Below, piece after piece: positions 21,697 through 24,291 of a DNA stretch of 31,443 bases (position 1 is the stretch's first letter; each line of letters starts with the position of its first letter). The DNA is taken from positions 1 to 31,443 of the IMG/VR virus record IMGVR_UViG_3300025674_000220. One strand, written 5' to 3'. The DNA comes from a virus. A program made the translations under genes and the position numbers. The notes under the pieces are model-generated. The model ran no database searches. It was given only the letters and a program-made list of their open reading frames with translations, and was not told the origin of the DNA.

Positions 21697-22228
21697 GACC
21701 TACATAGCGGCTAGTTGTGCTTCTCTGATGTACCTAGAGAAGACAATAGGCAAGATTGTCATCACTAGACCGCATGTCTCTGTAGGTAAGGATATAGGGT
21801 TCTTGCCCGGTAACGTCTTGGATAAGGCTACACCTTGGGCCATGCCGACCTTAGACGTATTGGAGCAATGGATGGGTAAAGGGGTTCTTGAGACTTCCCT
21901 AAAGAATGGGAATATCGAGATAGCCCCTTTAGCTTTAATGAGGGGTAGGAGCTTTGAGAACAGCTTCATTATTGTAGACGAGGCACAGAACATCACAACA
22001 CACGAAATTAAGATGTTATTGACCCGTGTAGCAGAGGGTTCTAAAATTGTTCTCAATGGAGATGTTCAACAGTCAGATCTTAAAGAGGCTAACGGCCTAG
22101 CAAAGATTGTTGAATTAAGTAAGAAGTACGAAGTGAACGTACCCGTTATTGAGTTCACAATAGATGATGTAGTTAGGAGTGATGTATGCCGTCAGTGGAT
22201 TTCGATCTTCATGCAGGAGAAAATCTAG
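21539..22228 (+). CDS. phoH: PhoH-like ATPase
   Basis: The 229-residue protein has Walker A GPAGTGKT at residues 47-54, IVITRPHVSVGKDIGFLPG, Walker B with Asp147-Glu148 (FIIVDEAQN) and VLNGDVQQSDL, all typical of PhoH. The first 40 residues (TERQKLYLNAL, needed for the fold's N-terminus) come from DNA that also encodes the end of the preceding gene in another frame, for 158 bases. No strong ribosome-binding site precedes the ATG. PhoH is frequent in marine phages; its role is unclear, perhaps in RNA metabolism. Confidence 0.88.
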   Translation: MTKTVGRKSKKPNQPQPPKRPPLEPKTERQKLYLNALRTSPQTIVLGPAGTGKTYIAASCASLMYLEKTIGKIVITRPHVSVGKDIGFLPGNVLDKATPWAMPTLDVLEQWMGKGVLETSLKNGNIEIAPLALMRGRSFENSFIIVDEAQNITTHEIKMLLTRVAEGSKIVLNGDVQQSDLKEANGLAKIVELSKKYEVNVPVIEFTIDDVVRSDVCRQWISIFMQEKI

Positions 22229-22464
22229 AGTTCCTGTCAGACCAGTATGATGTAGTAAATAAGCCACCGCACTACAACCAAGGTGGTGTTGAGTGTATCA
22301 ACTACATTGAACAGGTCTTGGGTGCTGGCTTCCCCTCCTATTGTAAAGGAAACGTGATTAAGTACCTGCACCGAAGCTCCTACAAGGGCAATGAAGTGCA
22401 AGATCTCAAGAAGGCTCGCTGGTATCTTGATCGCATGATAAAATGGTTGGAAGAAGACTCATGA
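22186..22464 (+). CDS. DUF3310 (SaV-like) protein
   Basis: The 92-residue protein contains YDVVNKPPHYNQGGVECINYIEQVL and SYCKGNVIKYLHRSSYKGNEVQDLKKARWYLDRMIKWL, the characteristic pattern of the phage DUF3310 family (PPHY, GN.IKY..R...K....DL.KA.WYL). Some members are annotated as putative nucleotide kinases, but the biochemical role is not established. It overlaps the PhoH gene by 43 bases and the next gene by four. Confidence 0.8.
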   Translation: MPSVDFDLHAGENLEFLSDQYDVVNKPPHYNQGGVECINYIEQVLGAGFPSYCKGNVIKYLHRSSYKGNEVQDLKKARWYLDRMIKWLEEDS

Positions 22465-22844
22465 GGATTATCGCCACACTTATTGGACTACTGTTCAGCA
22501 CAGTCGCTGTAGCAGACCCTACAGCAAAAGCTACATCCGACATACGGGATATGGCATCACTGATAGCAGCAGACTACAATAAGTGTGGTGTTGTCCAGAT
22601 GGAGAAAGCCATCGACTACCTTGGAGCTATGTCAGCTATTATTGAAGCTGAAAACCCTGACGTAGACACCAACGACCTTATGGTAGGCCAGTTACTAGCC
22701 TTTGAAGAGGCATTCATCATTGCCGATAACTACTCAAAGGTCATGGGCTGTGGGAAAATGAACGAGCTTATCGAAGCATTCCGCTACGGTATGAAGTTCA
22801 ACAAGGACGTTTACTACTTCTATACAGAATTGGGGGTGCTATGA
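22461..22844 (+). CDS. Exported protein of unknown function (signal peptide)
   Basis: The 127-residue product starts with MRIIATLIGLLFSTVAVADP, a clear Sec signal peptide with an AVA cleavage site before Asp19. The mature part is helical and acidic, with two cysteines (NKCGVV and MGCGKM) that may form a disulfide in the periplasm. ATG overlaps the DUF3310 stop (ATGA). The role is unknown; a phage protein in the periplasm may alter superinfection, lysis timing or envelope function. Confidence 0.65.
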   Translation: MRIIATLIGLLFSTVAVADPTAKATSDIRDMASLIAADYNKCGVVQMEKAIDYLGAMSAIIEAENPDVDTNDLMVGQLLAFEEAFIIADNYSKVMGCGKMNELIEAFRYGMKFNKDVYYFYTELGVL

Positions 22845-23077: not shown

Positions 23078-23428
23078 ATGGACAAAGAGTGTAGTTGTTG
23101 CGGAGCAGAGGGGACTACTCATGCCCACCATATTTTACCGAAGGCTTTAGGTGGTGATGACAGACCCTCTAATCTTGTCGAAGTCTGCCCAAATTGTCAT
23201 TGGAAGATACATGGTAGGAAGACTAGGGGGACTGACTGGCGGAACTTACAAGCAGAAGGCATAGCTAAAGCTAAGGCTGAGCGCAAGTACAAGGGACGCC
23301 AGCCACTCAAAGCTGAGAAGGTCGAAAAGCTAAAGGCACTGGTTCAAGCTGGTTCCAGCATCTCCGAAGCAGCCAGAGAAGTGAAGATTAGTCGGGTCAC
23401 AGCGCACAAATACCTGAAAGAGCTTTAG
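23078..23428 (+). CDS. HNH endonuclease with resolvase-like helix-turn-helix
   Basis: The 116-residue protein has Cys5-x2-Cys8 and Cys37-x2-Cys40 zinc ligands around THAHHILPKALGG (HH), SNLVEVCPNC (Asn) and HWKIHG (His), a complete HNH core. Residues about 68-116 (YKGRQPLKAEKVEKLKALVQ, SSISEAAREVKISRVTAHKYL) form the helix-turn-helix of resolvases and invertases. It is probably a free-standing homing-type nuclease. Its stop codon lies directly at the predicted 5' end of the tmRNA, so the two may have been acquired together. Confidence 0.85.
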   Translation: MDKECSCCGAEGTTHAHHILPKALGGDDRPSNLVEVCPNCHWKIHGRKTRGTDWRNLQAEGIAKAKAERKYKGRQPLKAEKVEKLKALVQAGSSISEAAREVKISRVTAHKYLKEL

Positions 23429-23676
23429 CCTTGTTCGCCGTTGATTTGTAGAAGACAGTATGCAGGACCGGGGGGCAGTACCCCGCACCTCCACCATTTC
23501 CACGGGGGTGAACTAGGATCGACTGGTGCTTGATGCTACAATGAGGCAACCGAGTGGTTCCGTAAGAACCAACCTCCATAAGTGCTAACAACTATGTTGC
23601 ACCTTCCCTCGCTGTAGCAGCGTAAGGGACGGGCCTATTTCGGGGGGCCTTGGAACAGAAGGGAGCTTCGGCTCCC
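23428..23676 (+). ncRNA. ssrA: Circularly permuted tmRNA (two-piece type)
   Basis: tmRNA releases stalled ribosomes and tags the unfinished protein. In this permuted gene the acceptor piece comes first: T-stem CGGGG/CCCCG (23469-23473, 23481-23485), CACCTCC and then A-CCA at 23486-23496. After a 7-base spacer the coding piece starts with GGGGGTG (23504-23510), which pairs fully with CACCTCC; pair 3:70 is G:U, the alanine identity element. AACTAGGATCGAC resembles the tmRNA D-region. CTACAA (23536-23541) pairs with TTGTAG (23446-23451), and GAGGC (23543-23547) with GCCTT (23428-23432), as a P2-like stem. GGTTC/GAACC (about 23556-23570) could be a pseudoknot stem before the tag. CGCTG/CAGCG forms a hairpin at the tag end. 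A UUCG hairpin (23661-23676) lies downstream. The T-loop reads GGCAGTA, not the usual UUCRANY. The 5' and 3' ends are approximate. Confidence 0.88.
23584..23625 (+). other. tmRNA tag reading frame (ANNYVAPSLAVAA)
   Basis: Starting at GCT, the frame reads Ala-Asn-Asn-Tyr-Val-Ala-Pro-Ser-Leu-Ala-Val-Ala-Ala and then TAA. A 13-residue tag starting with Ala-Asn and ending in LAVAA fits known tmRNA degradation tags recognised by ClpXP. The GCT is the predicted resume codon, preceded by ATAAGT. The TAA lies within a hairpin region (TCCC/GGGA), as in other tmRNAs. Confidence 0.88.
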
Positions 23677-23718
23677 ACCCGATACATTCTCTCTCCAAAT
23701 AATAATAATGAGGACAAC

Positions 23719-24291
23719 ATGAAACGCTATATTGTTTCGTTCATTTCAACCCTATTCGTCTCTGGTGCAGCAGTGGCTCAAGAAGCTCCTGTGACTGTCA
23801 CCAACACTTATGTAGAGATTGGCACTACGTTTGAAGATGAGACCTTGATTGCTCTTGGTACTGGTATCGGCGCTGGCCCAGTGTCTGCTTATGCAGAATT
23901 GTCTGGTACGACCAACAGCGAGTTTCAGGCTCGTGCCTACACCGACGCTGAGTTCGGTAAGTTTAAGATCACTCCGGGCCTTAACTACACTTGGGGCGAG
24001 TCTGGTGGCGACCTGATTGGCTTTGGTGAAGGCAACGAATGGGGTGATGTAACAGCAGACATGGAAGTGTCTATCCACCCTAATTTGATTGGCGGTGAGT
24101 ATGCCTTTGCTAACACCTCTGTAGGCTTTGATGGCTGGTCTCTTGACTGGGACGGTGGTGAAGTAGGTGCTGGCTACAAGCTAGACATCGCTGATAACGT
24201 CTACCTTGATGCTCGCATGTCTTGGGCCTATGACGACCAGTTTGAATCTGGCGATCGTCGTATTGTAGCTGGTATCGGCCTTAAGTTCTAA
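23719..24291 (+). CDS. Outer-membrane beta-barrel-like protein with signal peptide
   Basis: The 190-residue product begins with the signal peptide MKRYIVSFISTLFVSGAAVA (cleavage after A20). The mature part alternates polar and hydrophobic residues in repeated beta-strands (VTVTNTYVEIGTTF, AYAELSGTT, FKITPGLNYTWGES, GAGYKLDIADNVYLDARMSWAY) and ends in GIGLKF, with the C-terminal Phe typical of BAM-inserted barrels. About eight strands fit. The ATG at 23719 has GAGG upstream; an upstream in-frame start at 23650 would remove the signal. It is the last rightward gene. It might change host surface receptors, but no function is known. Confidence 0.75.
   Translation: MKRYIVSFISTLFVSGAAVAQEAPVTVTNTYVEIGTTFEDETLIALGTGIGAGPVSAYAELSGTTNSEFQARAYTDAEFGKFKITPGLNYTWGESGGDLIGFGEGNEWGDVTADMEVSIHPNLIGGEYAFANTSVGFDGWSLDWDGGEVGAGYKLDIADNVYLDARMSWAYDDQFESGDRRIVAGIGLKF

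Follow-up and report, generated by a model that had tools for sequence, protein, structure and literature searches.

The virus record IMGVR_UViG_3300025674_000220 of IMG/VR, 31,443 bases long and called the window in the following, contains a gene which, from its sequence, is supported as an apparently intact circularly permuted transfer-messenger RNA (tmRNA) of alphaproteobacterial type, carried by a phage. Very probably it is a functional two-piece tmRNA gene of a marine phage related to CRP-6, with which the phage joins the ribosome rescue pathway of its host using a tag peptide of its own. ARAGORN reported one RNA gene in the window, a permuted tmRNA at 23403–23716 of the plus strand with the tag ANNYVAPSLAVAA followed by a stop codon. 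The Rfam search of the window yielded a match to RF04321 (tmRNA_permuted) at 23440–23625 with 100.6 bits (E=1e-18) and a match to RF01849 (alpha_tmRNA) at 23384–23669 with 69.2 bits (E=4e-17). Both scores are far above chance and exceed the curated cut-offs of 47 and 50 bits, respectively. At the gathering cut-off only tmRNA models were obtained, and no glutamine riboswitch was found in the window. These searches bear out the original prediction, which had proposed a permuted tmRNA of this type with the acceptor piece ahead of the coding piece, and which had set its limits at 23428–23676, close to the conserved extent of about 23433–23676.

The gene is arranged as acceptor piece, spacer of 7 nucleotides (nt), and coding piece, with the following parts:

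23433–23496, plus strand: acceptor (tRNA-like 3′) piece with the 5′ P2 strands, T-arm, 3′ acceptor strand, discriminator A and CCA, from the RF04321/RF01849 alignment
23469–23485, plus strand: T-arm, with the stem CGGGG/CCCCG (23469–23473 with 23481–23485) and the loop GGCAGTA
23486–23492 with 23504–23510, plus strand: acceptor stem of 7 bp, CACCTCC with GGGGGTG, including G3:U70
23493, plus strand: discriminator A
23494–23496, plus strand: encoded CCA
23497–23503, plus strand: spacer TTTCCAC, 7 nt, between CCA and G1, presumably removed in processing
23504–23676, plus strand: coding piece, from the Rfam alignment and the clade alignment
23556–23570, plus strand: PK1-region hairpin GGTTC/GAACC upstream of the tag, with a UA to CG double change in the related contig L004
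23584–23625, plus strand: tag frame with resume codon GCT, encoding ANNYVAPSLAVAA and ending with TAA, from ARAGORN
23605–23629, plus strand: stem TCCCT/AGGGA around the tag stop codon, with compensatory changes in relatives
23661–23676, plus strand: 3′ hairpin GGGAGC-TTCG-GCTCCC, with an A-U to G-C double change, the probable 3′ border of the coding piece

The coding piece comprises the 5′ acceptor strand GGGGGTG, followed by the D-region GGATCGAC, and further P2 strands, the PK1-region hairpin, the tag frame, and the 3′ hairpins. Four P2 helices, which are formed in all sequences compared, join the two pieces. All the parts named beforehand, i.e., the acceptor stem of 7 bp with G3:U70, the encoded CCA, the T-stem, the D-region, the P2 pairing, and the tag end LAVAA before a stop codon, were located in the sequence.

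Searches of IMG/VR with the tag pattern and with a pattern for the coding piece matched 25 and 35 viral contigs, respectively, which represent the clade of the window itself. In 21 distinct genes of this clade the acceptor piece is conserved and all 48 proposed base pairs are kept, the seven acceptor pairs including G3:U70 being invariant in 21 of 21. For a formal count an alignment of eight clade genes was compared with 500 shuffles and with a control in which the pairing partners were slid. Standard pairs occupied 100% of the 384 pair cells. Six pairs were changed on both sides, a number equalled in 5 of the 500 shuffles, and the 15 double-changed cells were reached by none of them, while sliding of the partners reduced pairing to 37–51% and double changes to zero. 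The double changes are located in the T-stem (two of its five pairs, with CG/UA/AU and GC/CG among relatives), in the hairpin upstream of the tag, in the stem around the stop codon, and in the 3′ hairpin. The P2 helices are nearly invariant and show little covariation; as the acceptor pairs and most P2 pairs never vary, they provide no covariation evidence in either direction.

The stem around the stop codon occurs in relatives as TCTGT/ACAGA and as TCCGT/ACGGA, compensated despite the recoding of the tag; the TCTGT/ACAGA form is found where the tag end SLAVAA is altered to SVALAA or SVAIAA. In one contig, L350, where the tmRNA lies near a minus-strand match at 358–392, about 40 extra bases follow the tag stop codon within the loop of this stem, which is retained as TCCGT/ACGGA. 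The compensation bears on the question of whether the RNA might be a decoy or inhibitor which, once processed, would bind to SmpB or the ribosome and mainly disturb trans-translation of the host, as has been proposed for the form without a tag in phage DS6A. An inhibitor of this kind would have no need for a resume codon, a tag frame, a stop codon, and a stop-codon helix kept under compensatory change; on the other hand, no SmpB is encoded by the phage, so that its tmRNA would compete for the SmpB of the host. Altogether we regard a decoy as very unlikely.

The tag itself is strongly conserved. In all 21 distinct clade genes the tag begins with ANNYVAPS and ends in LAVAA, VALAA, or VAIAA. In the codons of the first eight residues only silent substitutions are seen, the later changes are conservative (L/V/I), and the terminal AA is always retained. 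The pattern ANNYVAPxLAVAA was not found in host species: this exact degenerate pattern, which does not cover the VALAA and VAIAA variants, had no match in 84,980 species genomes of bacteria and archaea. This absence and the start ANN-YVAP, where most listed host and phage tags begin with AND, would fit a working phage tmRNA with a tag built so that rescued proteins meet a different fate, for example through weaker adaptor recognition. Some host tags, such as ANNKFALAA, ANNNFALAA, and ANESYALAA, lack the aspartate as well, however, and the degradation end is retained in the phage tag, and we consider a tag designed in this way unlikely. The same holds for a broader role, for which we see only a small chance, in which the phage tmRNA would replace or override that of the host and the phage-only tag would change what happens to rescued proteins, for instance by protecting them from a certain protease or directing them to it, thereby countering RNA-cleaving defences or loss of tmRNA in the host.

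For a functional two-piece tmRNA, which we prefer, established tmRNA biology suggests the following sequence of steps, from which we infer processing, charging, use by the ribosome, and benefit to the phage. One transcript would be cut by tRNA-processing enzymes of the host, with RNase P acting at G1 and 3′ trimming proceeding to the encoded CCA, to yield the acceptor and coding pieces, which would stay joined through the P2 helices. Alanyl-tRNA synthetase of the host would charge the RNA via G3:U70, and SmpB and EF-Tu of the host would bring it to ribosomes that have stalled on broken mRNA. There ANNYVAPSLAVAA would be appended, and its hydrophobic-Ala-Ala end should route the tagged protein to proteases of the ClpXP type. 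The phage would acquire capacity for rescue as well as its own tag, and the originally proposed role, rescuing ribosomes and tagging proteins in the infected cell, is a reasonable one.

The nearest cultured relative of the DNA polymerase of the carrier phage is Roseobacter phage CRP-6 (61.7%), which is treated as a separate group in PMC6918029. For NrdJ the closest matches are in roseophages of the HMO-2011 type and in Cobavirus roseophages; the membership in the HMO-2011 type which this suggests was rejected, as the DNA polymerase points to CRP-6. The host range of the phage is deduced from its relatives. A match to RF04321 is present in two near relatives of about 44 kb and was not detected in CRP-6, CRP-2, CRP-5, HMO-2011, or two IMG/VR relatives; the tmRNA is therefore a feature of a subclade. 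Many contigs, among them ones of 43.8 and 44.9 kb, have it at the same place in the genome. In the window it lies at the end of a rightward block that encodes PhoH, DUF3310, and small proteins, with the late genes running leftward towards it. As smpB was not found on seven clade records, two of them of about 44 kb, SmpB of the host is presumed to be used.

Several observations weigh against the gene being a functional tmRNA of alphaproteobacterial type. The alpha_tmRNA score is modest (69 bits). Among 385 alphaproteobacterial genomes only the tRNA-like part is matched, at best with 90% over 58 nt, and the region after the tag is shorter than in the host examples compared. Of a putative PK1 pseudoknot, one hairpin with one double change was found and no second strand. 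A terminator scan found no T-run after the 3′ hairpin on the plus strand, a T-tailed form existing for the opposite strand only, and the promoter search gave no convincing candidate and none above chance, and a dedicated promoter of the tmRNA gene was rejected on this ground.

With matches limited to the tRNA-like part, no host donor was identified in these 385 genomes, in which Rhodobacterales were not specifically targeted; the gene is thus of alphaproteobacterial type but no recent copy of a sampled host gene. This lack of a close host relative outside the tRNA-like part also speaks against a passive, decaying remnant of a host genome, left for example by imprecise prophage excision at ssrA. 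Such an origin is conceivable in that ssrA is a common integration site, and it is weighed by the authors who described the phage Melnitz (PMC9004378). Both pieces are intact, however, 100% of the pairs are kept with compensatory changes, and the location is conserved in the phage subclade, which makes a remnant extremely improbable.

The order of acceptor piece, spacer, and coding piece is that of the alphaproteobacterial two-piece tmRNA (RF01849; merged family RF04321), with which the gene of the window also shares the T-loop GGCAGTA, the D-region TAGGATCGAC, G3:U70, the encoded CCA, and the ATAA-NT-GC resume region. The block after the tag reads GGAACAGAA in the window and GGCAACAGAA in the alphaproteobacterial host form. 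Unlike the host examples, the gene of the window is shorter, and a hairpin upstream of the acceptor piece is not evident.

Two-piece tmRNAs of phages have been described before. In 2022, 402 phages with 133 unique tmRNA structures were reported, 53 of which were called two-piece, 50 of these coming from marine or aquatic samples, and the two-piece tmRNA of methylophage Melnitz was detailed (PMC9004378); another study counts 79 unique tmRNA sequences in phages, all forms included (PMC11915505). Like Melnitz and the other marine phage tmRNAs of PMC9004378, the present one is permuted, of alphaproteobacterial type, and carried by a marine phage, but the phage group, related to CRP-6, and the tag differ. 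Among cultured phages RF04321 matched Phaeobacter phage MD18 with 118.7 bits and Sphingobium phage Lacusarx with 90.7 bits. Their tmRNA genes are permuted as in the window, whereas their genomes are much larger (149 and 130 kb), their tags are ANTNAAPMEMAIAA and ANDNDVVTAEVRLAA, and the spacer of Lacusarx is much longer than the 7 nt of the window. The permuted tmRNA of MD18 (MT270409.1), at 21785–22073 on the minus strand, is unannotated in its record. A strict pattern for the core of acceptor, spacer, and D-region occurs in at least 119 viral stretches of IMG/VR. Taken with the 53 two-piece phage tmRNAs of PMC9004378, this number contradicts the original view that phage tmRNAs are few and a permuted one a notable case. 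As these two-piece phage tmRNAs, MD18, and Lacusarx precede it, the tmRNA of the window belongs to a known kind; new here is a well-supported tmRNA lineage in CRP-6-related phages.

Spacers are 5, 7, or 9 nt long in most clade members. The 7-nt spacer was rejected as exceptional: spacers of 3–12 nt are common in alphaproteobacterial genomes searched with the same strict pattern, a sample biased by that pattern. Three variants have spacers of 93–149 nt with complementary ends (L201:8198–8489, 102 nt; L202:784–1055, 93 nt; L203:3641–3979, 149 nt), two of them being present in two contigs each (L201/L208 and L203/L204). The Rfam tmRNA scores of L201–L203 remain above the cut-off. The T-arm of L202 differs (AGGGG-TGCAAAT-CCCCT). 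An identity of the long spacers with a known RNA was rejected, since Rfam, searched at E up to 1, showed no family other than tmRNA there. For a frame of 47 amino acids in the spacer of L203 phage records offered no convincing relative, the best E being 0.9. Since similar closing repeats (TAAxCAC...TTATGAT) occur in other phage tmRNA spacers and long tmRNA spacers are described in general by PMC11915505, the long spacers of the clade are not claimed as new.

A 22-nt element, GGTGGCTTATGTAATCCCTTCC, absent from the window, was observed in the permuted tmRNA spacers of other phages, in 35 to 36 contigs of IMG/VR (L010, L018, L085, L104, L116, and L383–L413; e.g., L085:9829–9850). It ends at the base before G1, and GGTGG within it can pair with the CCACC of the CCA end. 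Its mean pairwise identity is 99% versus 62% for the 80 nt upstream and 160 nt downstream, an invariance due in part to selection, because the collecting scans required most of its bases. A relaxed pattern added only four one-mismatch variants, and the five examples in the set of at least 119 stretches, not selected on the spacer, are all exact. With up to two mismatches allowed, the element was not seen in the 385 alphaproteobacterial genomes; it was also not seen in phage records, and no other Rfam family was above cut-off at its sites. It may serve as a signal for processing or as a promoter of the coding piece, or may mark the site of a mobile element. Unusually long tags are predicted for permuted tmRNAs of phages in L010, L018, L085, L104, and L116, in L032/L108, and in L059; they comprise 22 amino acids (ANxxALGFADLTVG...LRLAA, conserved in many contigs), 31 amino acids, and 29 amino acids ending in LAV rather than AA.

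Immediately upstream of the tmRNA, at 23078–23428 of the window, lies an HNH endonuclease gene, found at the same site in two other subgroups. The comparison covers the window, L006, L011, and L210; in L006 the HNH gene is followed by a DNA methyltransferase-like frame, and in L210 it is absent with flanks 98–99% identical, a picture that resembles the recent gain or loss of a mobile gene. At 23722–24291 and 22443–22844 the window encodes two proteins that appear to carry signal peptides. The former, judged by eye, resembles a small outer-membrane barrel, and neither product had a Pfam or PHROGs match. In L057 an acceptor piece of the clade continues, from a switch near the T-arm, into a coding piece and a downstream gene belonging to another phage group, reflecting either an assembly chimera or recombination at the tmRNA.

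Permuted tmRNAs are common in phages, and their spacers vary, with a near-invariant element in those of another phage group. To these the present gene adds a phage-borne two-piece tmRNA lineage in a CRP-6-related group, and its tag pattern had no match in genomes of host species. Proteomics directed at the tag could, provided that the RNA is used, distinguish phage-driven from host-driven tagging during infection.
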